DNA from: Deltaproteobacteria bacterium
Lineage (GTDB): Bacteria; Desulfobacterota; Desulfarculia; Adiutricales; Adiutricaceae
Assembly: GCA_031254895.1 (NCBI GenBank)
Contig: JAIRTO010000180.1
Location: 1 to 33,847, forward strand
Direction of reading: 5' to 3'
DNA: 33,847 bases
Program-made: the position numbers and the translations under genes
Notes under the pieces: generated by a model
What the model saw: the letters and a program-made list of their open reading frames with translations, nothing else
Told to the model about the DNA's origin: nothing
Databases searched by the model: none
Shown here: in pieces, positions 656-27,710 of the stretch
How the letters are laid out: the number at the start of each line of letters is the position of its first letter
Numbering within the stretch: the first letter of the stretch is position 1

Positions 656-731
656 AGGCCAGTAGCTCAATTGGCAGAGCACCGGTCTCCAAAACCGGGG
701 GTTGGGGGTTCGATTCCCTCCTGGCCTGCCA
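656..731 (+). tRNA. trnW: tRNA-Trp (anticodon CCA), CCA end encoded
   Basis: 76-nt cloverleaf: acceptor AGGCCAG/CTGGCCT, anticodon loop CTCCAAA, T-loop GGTTCGATTCC, 3' GCCA. Confidence 0.96.
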
Positions 732-15172: not shown

Positions 15173-15463
15173 TAGAGAATGTTTGGGCTGACGTGGTCTT
15201 GGCCGGAAAACGTCAGGCAGCTTTCTCGCCGTTAGGCGAATATGGCCGCTTCGTCAGGGGACGCCAAAACGATCAGCTTCATGACGCCCTTTTTTTGGAG
15301 ACGAGAGCCCGTTCGATTTAGTTTTGGCGGCGGAACCGAAAAAGGCCCAAAAATAGCCGACGCGGAAGGTAGGCCAAAATCGTCGTCTTTTTTGCCAAAG
15401 CGGGCCTTTTTCGCGACCAGACGCGCGGTTTTTTTTCGTCGTCAAAAGATCCGGAGGCGCGGA

Positions 15464-17368
15464 ATGCCAAGAACCAACAAAGGGACGAACTTGCGGACGA
15501 ATTTGGCCGTCGTCTTTCTGGTCGCCTTCGGTCTGGCCGCCGTTTTTCCGGCCGGCTGCGGCAGTTCCGAAACGGATTCCGGCGCTTCCTCGAAGACGGC
15601 CGAGGGGGCGGCCGAAGGGCGGTCCGGCCCGCCGACTGTTCCTTTCGCCGCCGAGTGGATAGAAAACAGCTTGGCCGAGCACGATCGCGTTTTATACGTC
15701 TACAAGGATTTCGGGGACGGGGTCAATCATTTCACCCAAAAGGCCTGGATGGGCGACAATTTCAGAAAAATTCCGGTCATGAGGGAAGACTCCGTCGGCC
15801 GCGACGGGACGACGGGCCTAGCCTGCGAGATATTCTTCAAAGATCATGCCTGGGGCGGCTTCATGTTTTTGAACGGCGTCCTGAAGGCGGGTTCCGTCAA
15901 GCCTGAGCCGGATTTCGGCCAAGTCGACTCCGGTTTGGATCTCACTGGCGCGGACAAGCTGACCTTTTACGCCAGGGGGGACGAGGGCGGCGAACACGTC
16001 GAGTTTTTCGCGGGAGGACTCGGGCATGTCGGCTTTTTGACGCCGCCGTTTCCCGACTCGACCAAAAGAACCCTAGGTTACGTCGCCTTGACCAAAGAGT
16101 GGCGACGTTACGAGATTCCTCTGACCGGTCAAGACCTCAGTCGCCTCGGCGCCGGCTTCGGCTGGGCGACCAACGGCATGAACAACAGATATAGAGAGCA
16201 TGTCCGCTTCTATTTGGACGACATCCGCTTCGAGTTTCCGAACGGCGAGGCGAGACCGACGTTTTTGACCAGCTACGCCCCGGCCCGCCCGGGCACGGAC
16301 GGCGCGATCATAAACGACGCCGCCTATTTGCGCGACAACGCTTTGGCGATCATGGCTCTGACCAGGGCCGGCAAGCATGAGAGGGCCAGACAGGCGGCGG
16401 ACGCCATCGTCTACGCGCTATACAACGATCGCTTCCACGACGACGGGAGATTGCGCAACGCCTATAGCGGCGGTCGTCCCGAGAGCTTTCCGGGGTGGCT
16501 TTCCGCCAAAGGCGAGCCTTTCGCTCGTTTGCCCGGCTTCTACGATCCGGAGGCCAATGGCTTTTTTGAAGATTATCACGCCGTCGGCGTTTCGACGGGC
16601 AATCTCAGTTGGGCCATCTTGGCTTTGCTGGACGTCGCTCTCCACGCGCCGGAAAGCGACGGCTACCTGGCCGCCGCTCAGAAAATCGCGGATTTCGTCT
16701 TGACTCTGGAGGCTTATCCTTTCGGCTTTGCCGGCGGATACGAGGGGCGGGAAAACCAAGAGATCAAAGTCGGCTATTTGTCCACCGAACACAACGTCGA
16801 TCTGATGCCGGTCTTCACCCGTCTCCACAATCTCGCCGGCAAAGAGGAATATAAGAAGGCCGCCGACGGCGCCAGGTCTTTCGTCTTGTCCATGCACGAG
16901 CCTGAGGCAGGATTTTTTTACGCCGGAGTCGGCCCGGACGGCCGAACCGTCAACCTCGGCGTCGTGCCTCTGGATTGCCAGACTTGGTCTCTGCTCGCCT
17001 TGGGAAAGAACGTCGTGGACGAAGCCAAAGTGATCAGCTATCTGGAAGAGCACATGGCCGTCGACTACGGCTACGATTTTGACGGGGACTCCAAAGACGG
17101 CGTCTGGAACGAAGGCGCGGCTCAGGTGGGCGTCCTGTACGGTCAATTCGGCCAGCCTGAAGCCTTAAAGCGAATTTTGGACGCTCTCGAAGCCAGGCGC
17201 CTGTCTGACGGCAGCCTCGCCGCCGCCGACAGAGACGGCGTCGGCGCCGGGTTCATGGTTTCGGGCACGTCAATTCCCTGGAACTACGACAATCGTCGGC
17301 ATCTTGGAGCCACGGCTCGGCTGTCGTTTCTGCAGCAAGACGGCTTCAATCCCTTGGCCGTCAGGTGA
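15464..17368 (+). CDS. Putative secreted lipoprotein: N-terminal beta-sandwich (CBM-like) region plus (alpha/alpha)6-toroid glycosidase-like region
   Basis: Signal peptide with lipobox FPAGC; LTGQDLSRLGAGFGWATNG...VRFYLDDIRFEF resembles CBM-type domains; helical repeats AYLRDNALAIMALTRAGKHERARQAADAIVYALYNDRF. Start moved from 15242 to ATG 15464 with SD GGAGG. Confidence 0.6.
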   Translation: MPRTNKGTNLRTNLAVVFLVAFGLAAVFPAGCGSSETDSGASSKTAEGAAEGRSGPPTVPFAAEWIENSLAEHDRVLYVYKDFGDGVNHFTQKAWMGDNFRKIPVMREDSVGRDGTTGLACEIFFKDHAWGGFMFLNGVLKAGSVKPEPDFGQVDSGLDLTGADKLTFYARGDEGGEHVEFFAGGLGHVGFLTPPFPDSTKRTLGYVALTKEWRRYEIPLTGQDLSRLGAGFGWATNGMNNRYREHVRFYLDDIRFEFPNGEARPTFLTSYAPARPGTDGAIINDAAYLRDNALAIMALTRAGKHERARQAADAIVYALYNDRFHDDGRLRNAYSGGRPESFPGWLSAKGEPFARLPGFYDPEANGFFEDYHAVGVSTGNLSWAILALLDVALHAPESDGYLAAAQKIADFVLTLEAYPFGFAGGYEGRENQEIKVGYLSTEHNVDLMPVFTRLHNLAGKEEYKKAADGARSFVLSMHEPEAGFFYAGVGPDGRTVNLGVVPLDCQTWSLLALGKNVVDEAKVISYLEEHMAVDYGYDFDGDSKDGVWNEGAAQVGVLYGQFGQPEALKRILDALEARRLSDGSLAAADRDGVGAGFMVSGTSIPWNYDNRRHLGATARLSFLQQDGFNPLAVR

Positions 17369-20311: not shown

Positions 20312-20609
20312 ACGGCTCTTTGAGCGACGGCTGCGTCTCGTCATGAGCTTTGTCGCCGGAAAAGCGGCCCTGGCCTTCGGCCGTCCTTTCGTCAAAAAAG
20401 TTTTCGAACTCCTCTAAATAAGCCGATCAGCCCGGACGCGTCGAACCGCCGATCAAGCCGGAAGGCTCCGTATGGGAAAGAAAAGCGTGAGAAGCTCTGG
20501 CCAACTCTTACAAAAATGAAAGCGCGACGATCCGTCAGGCCGCTCTGATCCGGTTCCCTTCGGCTTGCCGGCCGCCCTTTCGTCCCGTCCTTATGCCGGT
20601 CCCCGGATT

Positions 20610-21392
20610 TCAGACCTTAATATCCGTCAACCCCATGTCTTTCGCCAAAACCTGCTTCACCGTCAACAGCCGATCGATCATGCTCTTCAGCCTCTCTCCC
20701 GTGAACATCCGGGCCATGCCGGAAATGGAGAGGGCATGGGAGCATTCTCCCTGTCGGTTGTAGATCGGCGCCCCAACGCAACGAACCCCTTCGCTCCATT
20801 CCTCGTCGTCAAAGGCGTAGCCTTGGCGACGTATTTTCCTGATTTCCGTCCACAGCTGTTTCTTGTTCATGATGCTCTTTCGGGTATGGGCCTTGAAGAC
20901 TATGCGGTTCATGGTCTCTTCCAGTTCCTCGTCGTCCATGGCGGCCAAAATGCACTTGCCCATGGAGGCGTTGTGCAGCGGAGCCGTGTTCCCGATGTGG
21001 GAGACGTAACGAACCGGCAGACTGCTGCTGACGACGTCTATGGTCAGGACGTGCAGATCGTTGCGCTGTCCGAGACAGACGGTTTCGCCGAAGTCGTCGG
21101 CCAGAGCCCGCATGTGCCGATTGACCAGACGCGGCAGGGTGAGACCGTTCAAAGCCTTGCTGCTCAGACGGAAGAGCTTCATGGTCAGGGCGTAGCGCTT
21201 GTTGTCCAGCCGGGTCAGATAGCCGAGGTCGGTCAGGGTCAGCAAGACCCGATTCACGGCGTTCCGGTCGAGCTTCAAGGTCCGCACCAGGTCGGCCACG
21301 CTCATTTCGTCTTTGGCGGCCACCGTTTCCAGAATGTCCATGGTTCTTTTGACCAGATCGAGAAAATAATAAGGCTCAGGTTCATGCGGCAT
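20610..21392 (-). CDS. IclR-family transcriptional regulator
   Basis: N-terminal wHTH FLDLVKRTMDILETVAAKDEMSVADLVRTLKLDRNAVNRVLLTLTDLGYLTR and effector domain with ASMGKCILAAM. Confidence 0.9.
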   Translation of the reverse strand: MPHEPEPYYFLDLVKRTMDILETVAAKDEMSVADLVRTLKLDRNAVNRVLLTLTDLGYLTRLDNKRYALTMKLFRLSSKALNGLTLPRLVNRHMRALADDFGETVCLGQRNDLHVLTIDVVSSSLPVRYVSHIGNTAPLHNASMGKCILAAMDDEELEETMNRIVFKAHTRKSIMNKKQLWTEIRKIRRQGYAFDDEEWSEGVRCVGAPIYNRQGECSHALSISGMARMFTGERLKSMIDRLLTVKQVLAKDMGLTDIKV

Positions 21393-21493
21393 GATCGTTC
21401 ACCATTGGTTGAAGTGGGACGGGTTCGAATTGTCTTCATGGACAGATTATAGACGACATTCTCCCCGGCCGCAACAAAATGGGGCCGAAAATG

Positions 21494-21798: not shown

Positions 21799-22959
21799 AT
21801 GTCGATGGATCATCTGCGTCCCTTTCCTCCTGAAGAGCTGGAGGCCCGTTTGGCGCGTCTGCGGTTGGTCATGGCCGAACGCGGCTTGGATGCGGCTGTC
21901 GTCGTCGGCCCGGAGAACATCTACTATCTGACCGGCGTGGATCATTACGGCTATTTTTTTCAGTATTACCTGCTCGTCCCCCTCGAGGGCCAGCCGGTTC
22001 TGATCTGCCGCCGAATGGAGCAGGTGACCATGGACATAATGCTGCAAGGCGTCCGTTTCCATGGGCATCTGGATCATGAGCGCCCGGCCGATTACCTGAT
22101 CGAGGACGTCAAGGCGCTGGGGCTTGAGCGGGGCCGCATAGGTCTGGAGAAGCAGACGCTGTTCGGACCTTTGGAGAATTTCGAGATAATCTTCCAGGGT
22201 CTTCCCCAGGTCGAGTGGCGGAACTTCTCCGAGGCGGTCGACGAACTCCGGCGGGTCAAATCGCCTCTGGAACTGGACTACGTCCGACGGGCGGCCGCCG
22301 TCAGCGTCGCCATGACTAGAGCGGCCGTAGACGCCTGCCGAGCCGGGGCGGCCGAAAACGAAATCGCCGCCGCCGCCTGTTCGGCCATGTGTTCTCAGGG
22401 AGGCGCCTGGCCGGGCTTTCCGCCCTTCGTCCGCTCCACTCCCACCATGGGCATGGAGCACGGCGGCTGAACCACCCGTCGCCTGGAGAAGAAGGACGCG
22501 TTGTTTCTCGAACTGAGCGGCTGCTTCAAGCACTATCACGCCCCTATGGGTCGCCTGATCTTCGTCGGCGAAAAGCCCAAGGAAGCCGATTTCATCGCTA
22601 AAGCGACCATCGACGCCTTCAAGGCCGTGGTCGAAAACCTCAAGGACGGCCTCACCGCCGCCGAAGTGTACGAGAAATGGCAGGCCGTGGTCGACGAAGC
22701 GGGCTTGTCCCATTACACGCGCCACCATTGCGGCTACCTGGTGGGCATCGGCTTTCCGCCCGCCTGGACCGGCGGCAGCCGCGTGGTCGGGCTGCGACGC
22801 TACAGCGACATGACGCTGAAGAAGGGCATGACCTTTCACGTCCTGTCCTGGCTGGTGGGCAGCGGCCGGGGAGACTACCTGGTGACCAACGCCGCCGCTG
22901 TCGGCGAGGACTGCGGCGAGAACTTGATCGATTTCCCGATGGAACCGATCGTCAAATAG
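21799..22959 (+). pseudogene. M24-family (creatinase/prolidase-type, DoeA-like) hydrolase interrupted by one in-frame TGA at 22468-22470
   Basis: MSMDHLRPFPPEELEARLARLRLVMAERGLDAAVVVGPENIYYLTGVDHYGYFFQ...TPTMGMEHGG * TTRRLEKKDALFLELSGCFKHYHAPMGRLIFVG...LSHYTRHHCGYLVGIGFPPAWTGGSRVV; same frame on both sides of the TGA; SD GGAAGGAG. Confidence 0.75.
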
Positions 22960-23037
22960 AGCTGGCGTCGCCGCCGACAGGCGAGCGACGCCTCCGCGAC
23001 GGCGAGAACTGGAGCGATTCCCCGATGGGGCCGATCG
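22915..23037 (+). repeat. Degenerate duplication of the M24 gene 3' end (37-bp copies, offset 86 bp)
   Basis: GGCGAGAACTTGATCGATTTCCCGATGGAACCGATCG (22915-22951) vs GGCGAGAACTGGAGCGATTCCCCGATGGGGCCGATCG (23001-23037), 5 mismatches. Confidence 0.8.
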
Positions 23038-23164: not shown

Positions 23165-24172
23165 ATGAGAAAGTTGTTCGGTCTGGCCGCCATGCTGGCC
23201 TGCTTCTGTTTGGCCTTTTCCGGCCAATCCGCCTCGGCCGCCGACGAGATCAGGCTGCGGCTGTCCTGTCCTGTGGCCACCAAAGGATCCTTCATGGGCG
23301 ATTCGATCGAATTGTGGAAAAAGCTCATTGAGGAGAAATCAGGCGGCCGCATCAAGATTTCCCTGCATTATTCCGGCGAGCTGGGCTCCGAGGGCGAAAC
23401 CTTCGACCAGCACTACAAAGGCACGGTTCCCTTGCTGCTGACCTACTCGACCACCAGATACAGCGAAAAGCTCGGCCTGCTGTCCACGCCCTATCTTTTC
23501 GACGACTGGAACGACGTGCGCGAAGCCTTCGCGCCCGACGGCTGGATGACCGAAGTCTACGGAAAGATCTACGAAGAGGTCGGACTCAAGTTTCTGGCTC
23601 CCTATCCAGGGGGCTTCGGCGGAGTGGACACCAAAGGCAAATACGCCACCAACATCGCCTCCGCCCGGGAGCAAGGCATCAAGGTTCGCTGCGCGGCCAT
23701 CTTCCCCTTGGCCGAGACCATGCAAGCCTTGGGCTACCAGGTCATACCCGTGGACTGGAACGAGACCTACACCGCCATCCAGACCGGGCTGGTGGACGGC
23801 AGCTCCAACAACCCCATCTTCTGGACCTACGACACCTTCCGGGATCTTCTGGAATATTTCGTCGACACCAGCCACACCTTCTCTTCGGCCGACATGACCA
23901 TGAACCTCGACGCCTGGAACAAGCTCAGCCCCGAGGATCAGAAGATCATCTTGGATTCGGCTCTGGAGGTGGCGGCCAAGCAGTTCGAGGACGCGGAAAA
24001 GACCGACTTGCATTACCGCCAGCTTTCCATTGATCACGGCATCAAGTACATCAAGCCTACGCCGGAGGAAATCGCCGAAATGAAGAAGGTCTGCCAGGAG
24101 CAGATCTGGCCGTTGGTGGAAAAGGTGGTCGGCGCCGAACTCATGGCTCTGGTTCGCGCCAACTCCAAATGA
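23165..24172 (+). CDS. TRAP transporter substrate-binding protein (DctP family)
   Basis: Signal peptide; IRLRLSCPVATKGSFMGDSIELWKKLIEEKSGGRIKISLHYSGELGSEGETFDQ...VDGSSNNPIFWTYDTFRDLLEYFVDTSHTF. Confidence 0.92.
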   Translation: MRKLFGLAAMLACFCLAFSGQSASAADEIRLRLSCPVATKGSFMGDSIELWKKLIEEKSGGRIKISLHYSGELGSEGETFDQHYKGTVPLLLTYSTTRYSEKLGLLSTPYLFDDWNDVREAFAPDGWMTEVYGKIYEEVGLKFLAPYPGGFGGVDTKGKYATNIASAREQGIKVRCAAIFPLAETMQALGYQVIPVDWNETYTAIQTGLVDGSSNNPIFWTYDTFRDLLEYFVDTSHTFSSADMTMNLDAWNKLSPEDQKIILDSALEVAAKQFEDAEKTDLHYRQLSIDHGIKYIKPTPEEIAEMKKVCQEQIWPLVEKVVGAELMALVRANSK

Positions 24173-24182
24173 AAGAAACGTG

Positions 24183-24256
24183 TTGAAGCCCCCCCAAGGA
24201 GGACGCGTCCGCCTCCTCCTTGGGAACCCGTCCCGGGAGAGTCGCCGGGGCTTCAA
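24183..24256 (+). promoter_or_regulatory. Large nested hairpin between dctP and dctQ genes
   Basis: Outer 10-bp stem TTGAAGCCCC/GGGGCTTCAA, inner 11-bp stem CCCAAGGAGGA/TCCTCCTTGGG. Confidence 0.8.
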
Positions 24257-24271
24257 AGGGAGGTCGAATCC

Positions 24272-24826
24272 ATGCTGGACAAACTTCTGCGCCTCTTCGA
24301 ACGTCTCGATTCCCGTCTGGTCAAAGTTCAGAGACTCATGGCCATCGCCTTCGGTCTGGTCATGAGCTTGGGCATGACTGCGGCCATCGTCTCCCGGCAG
24401 TTCTTCAAAAATCCCCTCCTGGGGATGGAGGAGATCGTCGTGGTCAGCGGTTTCTGGTTCTACATGACCGGGGTTGCCTTGGCCGCCTCCGAGCGTTCGC
24501 ACTTGCGGGTGGAGGTTATTCCCATGGTCGTCCGGAACAGGCGGGCGGTGGCCGTCATCGAGGTCTTGACGTCCGTTCTGGCCTTGTTTCTGGCCGGATT
24601 CATCCTCTACTGGTGCTTCGATCTGTTGGCCTGGTCGATCGAGAAGAGAGACATTCTGCCGGCCACCAAATTGCCGTCGTACGTTCCCCAAAGCTCCTTT
24701 CCCCTGGCCATGGGGCTGTTGACGCTGTATTTCGCGAGAGATCTGCTGCGGGACGTCAGGAATCTGAGCGACGCCTTCAGGGGCCGCGCCCCGGAGACGT
24801 CGGCTAGGGAAGGAGAAGGCGCATGA
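24272..24826 (+). CDS. TRAP transporter small permease (DctQ family)
   Basis: Four-TM small protein, ...KNPLLGMEEIVVVSGFWFYMTGVALAASERSHLRVEVI... Confidence 0.88.
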   Translation: MLDKLLRLFERLDSRLVKVQRLMAIAFGLVMSLGMTAAIVSRQFFKNPLLGMEEIVVVSGFWFYMTGVALAASERSHLRVEVIPMVVRNRRAVAVIEVLTSVLALFLAGFILYWCFDLLAWSIEKRDILPATKLPSYVPQSSFPLAMGLLTLYFARDLLRDVRNLSDAFRGRAPETSAREGEGA

Positions 24827-26127
24827 CCGCCGTTATAGGCTTCGCTCTTTTGATCGCGCTGATGATTCTCGGGCTGCCCATCGCCTTTTCCTTCGCGGCG
24901 GCCACTTTCTTCATGGCCCTGTCTTACGGCATAGACATCTCCATGGTCATAACCACCGGCTTCTGGTCGCTCAACTCCGTCATTCTCCTGGCCCTGCCCC
25001 TTTTCATCATGGGCGGCTATCTGATGGAAAAAGGCGGCTTGGCCGACAATCTGGTCAATTTCGTCTGCGCTTACGTCGGCCGGATCCGGGGCGGCCTCGG
25101 CGCCTCCATGGTGGTGACCTCGGCCATTTTCGGAGCCATCTCCGGCTCGTCTTCGGCCGCCATCGCCTCCATCGGCACCGTCATGATCCCGCCCATGGAA
25201 AAGATGGGCTATCCCAGGCCTTACTCCAGCGCCATCTGCAGCGCCTCCTCGGTTTTGGGCCTGCTTATCCCTCCCAGTCTGACCATGCTCGTCTTCGCCC
25301 TGGTCACCAGGCTGTCGGTGGCCGCCTGCTTCATCTCCACCCTGGTTCCGGGCCTCCTTCTGGCCGCCTGCTACATCGGGGTGAATCACTTCATGGTCAG
25401 GCGACTGAACATCGCTCCGCCCGAAACGGCGAAGCTGGATTTCCGGGACAGCGCCAGGGCCAAGGCCAAGGCGACTTTCAAGGCCGTTCCTGCCCTGATG
25501 CTGCCGGTGATAATTCTGGGCGGCATCTACGGCGGCGTCTTCACGCCCACCGAAGCGGCGGCCGTGGCTTTCTGCTACGCCCTGCCGGTGGGTTTCTTCA
25601 TCTACAGGGGACTGTCGAAGGCCGTCTTCTGTCAGGCCATGAGCGAAGCGGCGGCCACGACCGGCTCGGTCGTCGTCATCCTGATGTTCTCCTTCGCCCT
25701 GAGCCGCATCATGACCATGGAAGGCGTCCCTCACGCCCTGGCCCAGTTCCTGCTGGACACCTTCCGCAGTCCGGCGCTGATCCTCCTGGTCGTCAACGTC
25801 ATGCTCATCTTCATGGGCATGCTCATCGACGACATGAGCGTCACGGCCATCATGTCGCCCATGCTGCTGCCGGCGATGATGGAGATCGGAGTCCATCCCT
25901 TTCATTTCGCGGCCATCATCGGAACCAACACCATCATCGGCTTCAATTCGCCGCCTGTGGCCTTCGGCCTGTATATGGCCTGCCGCATCGGCAAGGTCAA
26001 GATGCATGAAATAGTTGGCCCCATCATGTATTTTTTGCTGTTCGCCTGCATTCCGGTGATGCTGGCGACCACCTACTGGCCCAAGCTGTCGATGTGGCTG
26101 CCGGATCTTTTGGGCTACGTCAAATGA
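24823..26127 (+). CDS. TRAP transporter large permease (DctM family)
   Basis: LIALMILGLPIAFSFAAATFFMAL...MEKGGLADNLVNFVCAYVGRIRGGLGASMVVTSAIFGAISGSSSAAIASIGTVMIPPM; ATGA-type overlap with dctQ. Confidence 0.94.
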   Translation: MTAVIGFALLIALMILGLPIAFSFAAATFFMALSYGIDISMVITTGFWSLNSVILLALPLFIMGGYLMEKGGLADNLVNFVCAYVGRIRGGLGASMVVTSAIFGAISGSSSAAIASIGTVMIPPMEKMGYPRPYSSAICSASSVLGLLIPPSLTMLVFALVTRLSVAACFISTLVPGLLLAACYIGVNHFMVRRLNIAPPETAKLDFRDSARAKAKATFKAVPALMLPVIILGGIYGGVFTPTEAAAVAFCYALPVGFFIYRGLSKAVFCQAMSEAAATTGSVVVILMFSFALSRIMTMEGVPHALAQFLLDTFRSPALILLVVNVMLIFMGMLIDDMSVTAIMSPMLLPAMMEIGVHPFHFAAIIGTNTIIGFNSPPVAFGLYMACRIGKVKMHEIVGPIMYFLLFACIPVMLATTYWPKLSMWLPDLLGYVK

Positions 26128-26138
26128 AGGAGGTCGAC

Positions 26139-27710
26139 GTGAGGAATTCCAGCATTTTCAACGAGGTGTTCGGACCGGTCATGGTCGGTCCCTCCAGTTC
26201 GCACACGGCCGGTCCGGCCAGGATCGGCAAGATGTGCCGACAGGCTCTGCCGGACGAGCCGGAGAAGATCGACGTGAGCTTCGACCGACGAGGCTCCTTC
26301 GCCGCCACCTACGTCGCCCAAGGCTCAAATTACGGTTTCGTCGGCGGAATCCTGGGCCGGGACATCGGCGACGAGAACATCAAGCATAGCCTTTCGGAAG
26401 CCCGGGAAAAAGGGGTGTCGTGCCGCTTCAACGTCGTCGATCTTCCCGGCGACAATCATCCCAACTTCGCCGTCATCGAAATCACCGCCAGAAACGGCTT
26501 CAAGCTTGAGGCGGAGGCGGCCTCCACCGGCGGAGGAATGTTCGAGATCAGTCGTCTGATGGGCCGGGAGGTCTCTCTGAAGGGCGACCTTCACGAGTTT
26601 CTGCTTTTCGAGGAGCCGGCCGAGGGAGCGGCCGAGGCGGTCCGCCGTTTTATGGGCGAGAAGAAAGTGGCCTGTCTTCTCCGTCAATCCCCCGGTCTTC
26701 TGAACGTCAAGACCGACGAGGCCCCGGAAGGTCTGAAGGAAGGCCTGGAAGCCGTTCTGGGTCGCCGGGTGACCCATCTGCTCCCGGCTCTGCCGGTGGT
26801 CAAACGGCTGGATGGGAGACCGCCGTTCGACGACGCCGCCGGGGCGTTGGCGAGCGCCGAGCGCGAGGGGGTGAACGAGCCTTGGCGGCTGGCGGCGGCC
26901 TATGAATCCGCCTTGAGCGGAAAGGACGAACAGGAAATCCTTAGCATGATGGCCTCCCTCGCTAAGGTGATGAGGCGGGCGGCCGAAAGGGGTTTGGCCG
27001 GCGACTACCGGCCTCGGGGCTTTCTGCCTCCCCAGAGCCCGAAGATGCGTCAGGCGGTCGAGAGCGGACGGGTTCGTCAGCTCGATCTCGGGGTTCTGAA
27101 CAGGGCCGCCCTTTGGGCTTGCGCGGCGCTGGACTACGACATCTGTCTGGGGGTGGTCGCCGCCGCGCCGACCGGAGGCTCCAGCGGGGTTCTGCCAGGC
27201 GCGGTGATCGCCGTCGGCGAGGACCTCGGTCTCGGCGAGGACGAGATAGTCAAGGCTCTTCTGGTCGGCGGTCTGGTGGGCGTCTTCATCGACCACCAGG
27301 CCACCTTTGCCGCCGAGACGGCCGCCTGTCAGGCGGAAATAGGCGCGGCCAGCGCCATGGCCGGAGCGGCGGCGGTTCAGCTCTTGGGCGGAACCCCGGA
27401 GCAGGCTTTCAGGGCCGCCGCCTTGTCGCTGCAAAACATGCTGGGGCTGATCTGCGACCCCGTGGCCGGGGTGGGCAACGTTCCCTGCGTCAGCAGAAAC
27501 GCCGCCGGCGCGGCCAACGCTCTGGTCTCGGCCAATATGGTCATGGCCGGCTTTGACCCCTGTCTGCCTCTGGACGAGGTCATCCAGGCCATGATGAGCG
27601 TGGGCGGCATGCTGCCGGCCGAATTGCGCTGCACCGGCCGGGGCGGATTGTGCCTCAGTCCGACGGCTCGGAAAATAAGCCGAGAACTCGATTTGACCCC
27701 GGCGCTCTGA
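26139..27710 (+). CDS. L-serine ammonia-lyase (dehydratase), iron-sulfur-dependent, single-chain beta+alpha
   Basis: SSIFNEVFGPVMVGPSSSHTAGPARIGKM; AAPTGGSSGVLPGAV; C...LICDPVAGVGNVPC; GTG start preferred because SD AAGGAGG lies 5 nt upstream; alternative ATG 26124 overlaps the dctM stop. Confidence 0.88.
   Translation: MRNSSIFNEVFGPVMVGPSSSHTAGPARIGKMCRQALPDEPEKIDVSFDRRGSFAATYVAQGSNYGFVGGILGRDIGDENIKHSLSEAREKGVSCRFNVVDLPGDNHPNFAVIEITARNGFKLEAEAASTGGGMFEISRLMGREVSLKGDLHEFLLFEEPAEGAAEAVRRFMGEKKVACLLRQSPGLLNVKTDEAPEGLKEGLEAVLGRRVTHLLPALPVVKRLDGRPPFDDAAGALASAEREGVNEPWRLAAAYESALSGKDEQEILSMMASLAKVMRRAAERGLAGDYRPRGFLPPQSPKMRQAVESGRVRQLDLGVLNRAALWACAALDYDICLGVVAAAPTGGSSGVLPGAVIAVGEDLGLGEDEIVKALLVGGLVGVFIDHQATFAAETAACQAEIGAASAMAGAAAVQLLGGTPEQAFRAAALSLQNMLGLICDPVAGVGNVPCVSRNAAGAANALVSANMVMAGFDPCLPLDEVIQAMMSVGGMLPAELRCTGRGGLCLSPTARKISRELDLTPAL

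Follow-up and report, generated by a model that had tools for sequence, protein, structure and literature searches.

An in-frame TGA at the invariant tryptophan of a DoeA-like M24 gene is very probably a nonsense codon in a selenocysteine-decoding deltaproteobacterium

The closest described relatives of the gene reported here are DoeA/EutD and related creatinase-fold M24 enzymes (NF038259, TIGR02993; PDB 6twk, 6twj, and 6yo9). Its product shares with them a two-domain fold, the HxxW, YH, and FPPxW motifs, and a full-length collinear alignment. However, the gene carries an in-frame TGA at the motif tryptophan, scores far below the equivalog cut-offs, and adjoins TRAP transporter and serine dehydratase genes, with no identified ectoine cluster. 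In-frame stops in genes with dN/dS below 1 have been reported widely in prokaryotes, and UGA is leaky, with tryptophan inserted in E. coli and Salmonella (PMC7918605). The M24 gene resembles the genes of that set in being conserved apart from an isolated stop, but its stop occurs in one genome only and would be removed by the filter against sequence errors used there, which retains in-frame stops present in two or more genomes (PMC7918605). The fdhA gene of the same genome provides another parallel, namely an in-frame TGA in a selenocysteine (Sec)-decoding host; unlike in such Sec-UGA genes, the homologues of M24 have tryptophan rather than cysteine at this position, and no SECIS core hairpin above background accompanies the stop. 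Expansion of the code by both Sec and pyrrolysine (Pyl) has already been reported for marine Deltaproteobacteria (PMC8318568). The M24 TGA is very probably an ordinary nonsense codon.

The gene is located on the plus strand of the window, by which we mean the whole 33,847-nucleotide contig JAIRTO010000180.1 of a deltaproteobacterial draft genome in 376 contigs (GCA_031254895.1). Re-translation reproduced the frame described in the first-pass annotation: it runs from the ATG at 21799 to the terminal TAG at 22957–22959, and its sole internal stop is the TGA at 22468–22470 (codon 224), between MGMEHGG and TTRRLEKKDALFLEL. No other stop or frameshift was found in the gene. The N-terminal part (223 residues, 21799–22467) spans Creatinase_N and the start of Peptidase_M24 and ends just past the motif histidine, and the C-terminal part (162 residues, 22471–22956) is intact. 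In profile searches, residues 1–223 matched Creatinase_N plus Peptidase_M24 positions 2–63, the residues past the TGA matched Peptidase_M24 positions 68–185, and ectoine_DoeA_2 matched the two halves consecutively (8–221, then 227–385 of 386). Because both halves hit consecutive stretches of the profiles, they represent one gene of normal length, as had been proposed. Codon-position GC is coding-like both 5' and 3' of the TGA. Scored separately against the NCBIfam DoeA equivalog, the halves reached 128 and 80 bits, the sum of which is far below the cut-off of 575. Based on its Creatinase_N and Peptidase_M24 composition and its collinear full-length match, the predicted protein is a DoeA-like relative.

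The first-pass annotation had placed a tryptophan of the HxxW motif at the position of the stop, one base change away from TGG, and the homologues agree on both counts. All 62 realigned full-length homologues have tryptophan opposite the TGA (cysteine in 0/62) and a histidine three residues before it, and in the direct tblastn alignments, the 78 tryptophans at this site are all encoded by TGG (78/78). A further 18 apparent threonines in the tblastn alignments were gap artefacts of HTTW/HTSW that disappeared after realignment. Cysteine was absent from the site in all 104 aligned homologue segments, none of the homologues carried a stop there, and tryptophan is found in each of six homologues from same-phylum genomes. 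In a larger homologue set, tryptophan is present in all DoeA-like members and the distant aminopeptidase P-type proteins mostly have proline or alanine. A scan of genome contigs with alignment A2 as the query yielded 80 further homologue loci, a single-protein pattern having found no relative; one relative from another draft genome (L012) has a lone TAA elsewhere in its gene. Our searches for a closer strain or species carrying the M24 gene found none, the same-genus homologues being ~30% identical. Likewise, a tblastn search of plasmids with M24 returned only relatives below 60% identity, and a scan of IMG/VR for the exact TGA site gave no match.

The M24 sequence behind the TGA has not drifted, because the ratio of C-part to N-part identity is at the level of controls. 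Identity to homologues is 39.5% before the TGA and 45.2% after it, which corresponds to a ratio of 1.149; homologues of comparable divergence show a ratio of 1.158 (s.d. 0.059). Among the 59 columns conserved at ≥95%, 55 are intact in the M24 query, and the TGA itself is one of the four deviations. By these comparisons, the undecayed C-terminal part would be compatible with a mutation that is very recent, with an error, or with readthrough at high efficiency, but not with an old pseudogene. The latter was rejected given the absence of any further lesion and the control-level identity ratio, and a pseudogene could be at most very recent.

We consider it very probable that the M24 TGA is an unprogrammed single-base nonsense codon, produced by a change of TGG to TGA at the invariant tryptophan. 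It would have originated either in the assembly, through a consensus error or a mixture of strains, or as a very recent nonsense mutation, which we judge about equally likely. Ribosomes are expected to stop at this codon. If the mutation is real, residue 223 would be the last one translated, leaving an inactive fragment, trace leaky readthrough aside; low-level leakiness of UGA may yield traces of the full-length protein, which we do not count as programmed.

A second isolated stop in this assembly is relevant to the origin of the first. A codon-usage scan of 64 stretches of the genome (597 kb, ~17% of the genome), which was loosened since a stricter version missed the M24 site itself, identified ten same-frame stops between coding-like stretches, of which two besides that of M24 proved informative, one in dxs and one in a trimethylamine methyltransferase gene. 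The dxs gene on contig C20, the assembly's sole match over the family cut-off, carries a lone TAA at the tyrosine of YSTFLQR (L190:9077–9079, plus strand) but is otherwise intact, with TIGR00204 matched consecutively on both sides. A lone UAA in a gene that is normally essential has no explanation in any known use of the code, and so the draft assembly probably contains at least one trivial stop, the dxs TAA being probably a consensus error or a recent mutation. This lesion makes a trivial origin of the M24 TGA more likely without proving it. No internal stop was present in the PF00005 genes among the matches listed, which indicates that lesions of this type are infrequent. In a comparison of stops within the genus, most of those reported lay in antisense frames and were discarded. 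The trimethylamine methyltransferase gene (MttB) contains a TAG at L219:667–669 (minus strand, contig C240) with TIGR02369 matched on both sides; since PylS is found over its cut-off elsewhere in the same genome (C202:2517–3197), this TAG appears to encode Pyl. Two additional amino acids, Sec (FdhA UGA, tRNA-Sec, SelA, and SelB) and Pyl (MttB UAG and PylS), appear to be encoded by the host genome.

Efficient readthrough would likewise leave the sequence past the stop undecayed. We regard it as quite unlikely that the UGA is decoded often enough, whether as tryptophan by a near-cognate tRNA or as Sec by the resident Sec machinery, for the DoeA-like hydrolase to remain functional. If true, readthrough of M24 would represent leaky or regulated recoding where UGA already means Sec and UAG already means Pyl. 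The version in which near-cognate tRNA-Trp(CCA) inserts tryptophan and provides a useful amount of full-length enzyme accords with the requirement for tryptophan at this position, with the conservation of the part downstream of the TGA, and with the leakiness of UGA and the wide occurrence of in-frame stops under dN/dS below 1 described above. We nevertheless find it improbable. The tRNA-Trp gene of the window (656–731, plus strand), the CCA anticodon of which had been correctly identified at the outset, encodes a 5-bp anticodon stem closed by C27-G43, together with A9 and G24, and shows no UGA-suppressor signature; the features that promote UGA reading by tRNA-Trp are a 4-bp anticodon stem, A9C, and G24A (PMC13092985). 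Furthermore, TGA is the normal stop of at least six intact genes in the window (rpoB, dctP, dctQ, dctM, serine dehydratase, and M20), and a TGA at the M24 site was found in no second genome, two-genome presence being the filter mentioned above. The base that follows the M24 TGA is A, whereas a C after UGA makes for a leakier context.

Insertion of Sec, which would make this protein a new M24 selenoprotein, we consider very unlikely. The host is itself a Sec-decoding organism: tRNA-Sec (anticodon UCA), SelA, and SelB, which the first-pass annotation had suggested looking for, are all encoded on contig C85, as is an FdhA with a Sec-UGA in NVDHCARI-UGA-HAPSVAGL (L054:6979–6981, minus strand). Because this machinery is present, Sec could be excluded only from evidence at the M24 site itself. 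Nearly all selenoproteins possess cysteine homologues, and bacterial SECIS elements are recognised as a hairpin with a G within the first two loop positions, 16–37 nucleotides from the UGA (PMC13188914). The M24 homologues have tryptophan and none has cysteine, and no orthologue carries a stop at this position. In our own implementation of a loose SECIS folding test (threshold −7.5 kcal/mol), the M24 TGA reached −9.0 kcal/mol; taken alone, this would favour Sec, but the threshold is passed by 41% of ordinary TGG contexts from the same genome, and folds as stable as that of M24 are formed by 36%. Because a test based on energy only is thus non-discriminating, the contiguous core hairpin was used instead. 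For this hairpin, M24 shows −0.2 kcal/mol, a value that 49% of the ordinary TGG contexts equal or better and hence no signal above the in-genome background, compared with −4.6 kcal/mol for FdhA, which is reached by 17% of the background, a moderate separation only. Plain folding around the M24 TGA was no better than that of shuffled sequence, the weak downstream stem pointed out earlier (CGTC...GACG) was no better than chance, and Rfam at a lax threshold returned only sub-threshold chance matches. The M24 family is hydrolytic and is not known for redox chemistry, which also counts against Sec. Judged from the sequence data, nothing positively supports Sec at the M24 site and the residue evidence opposes it, in agreement with the first assessment of this locus.

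We likewise regard as highly unlikely a split gene, the halves of which are translated independently, the second from the TTG at 22501. An ORF spanning 22501–22959 exists mechanically, but the break falls inside the Peptidase_M24 domain, the homologues examined run continuously across it, and the TTG is positioned 10 codons past the TGA, within the conserved domain. General reassignment of UGA to tryptophan in this organism, also doubted in the first-pass annotation, is extremely unlikely: the M24 stop does fall on a tryptophan position, but TGA terminates the intact window genes listed above, the 597-kb sample contained no other strong candidate for TGA at tryptophan inside a gene, and a search with the tRNA-Trp gene as query revealed no further copy with a UCA anticodon in the organism's own genome (87.8% complete), the other matches that carry a tRNA being tRNA-Gly and tRNA-Thr.

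The TGA lies in a gene that is probably accessory and horizontally acquired: the nearest relatives found in named genomes are alphaproteobacterial, with up to 47% identity, and contig C265 of the host genome carries two other DoeA-like genes, both intact. Downstream of M24 are intact genes for a TRAP transporter (dctP, dctQ, and dctM) and L-serine dehydratase (23165–27710, plus strand), which probably belong to the same operon. This neighbourhood recurs in part in a genome of the same family (G022), the contig of which ends inside dctM. The L-serine dehydratase (26094–27710) is encoded by a single ORF that fuses the beta and alpha domains and adjoins the TRAP transporter genes. A 38-nucleotide imperfect direct repeat (87%) is found at 22914–22951 and 23000–23037 of the window and corresponds to a partial duplication of the M24 3' end just past the TAG. 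Two ORFs in the window, at 15242–17368 (708 residues) and 20565–21452 (295 residues), have no Pfam match at 1e-5.

This case illustrates how sequence alone can be used to classify an in-frame TGA where the genome decodes Sec, by the residue found in homologues, by the hairpin relative to an in-genome background, by the features of tRNA-Trp, and by decay past the stop. It also illustrates that trivial stops, as in dxs, can occur in a draft genome alongside Sec and Pyl codons that seem genuine, and that these stops are not to be counted as recoding.
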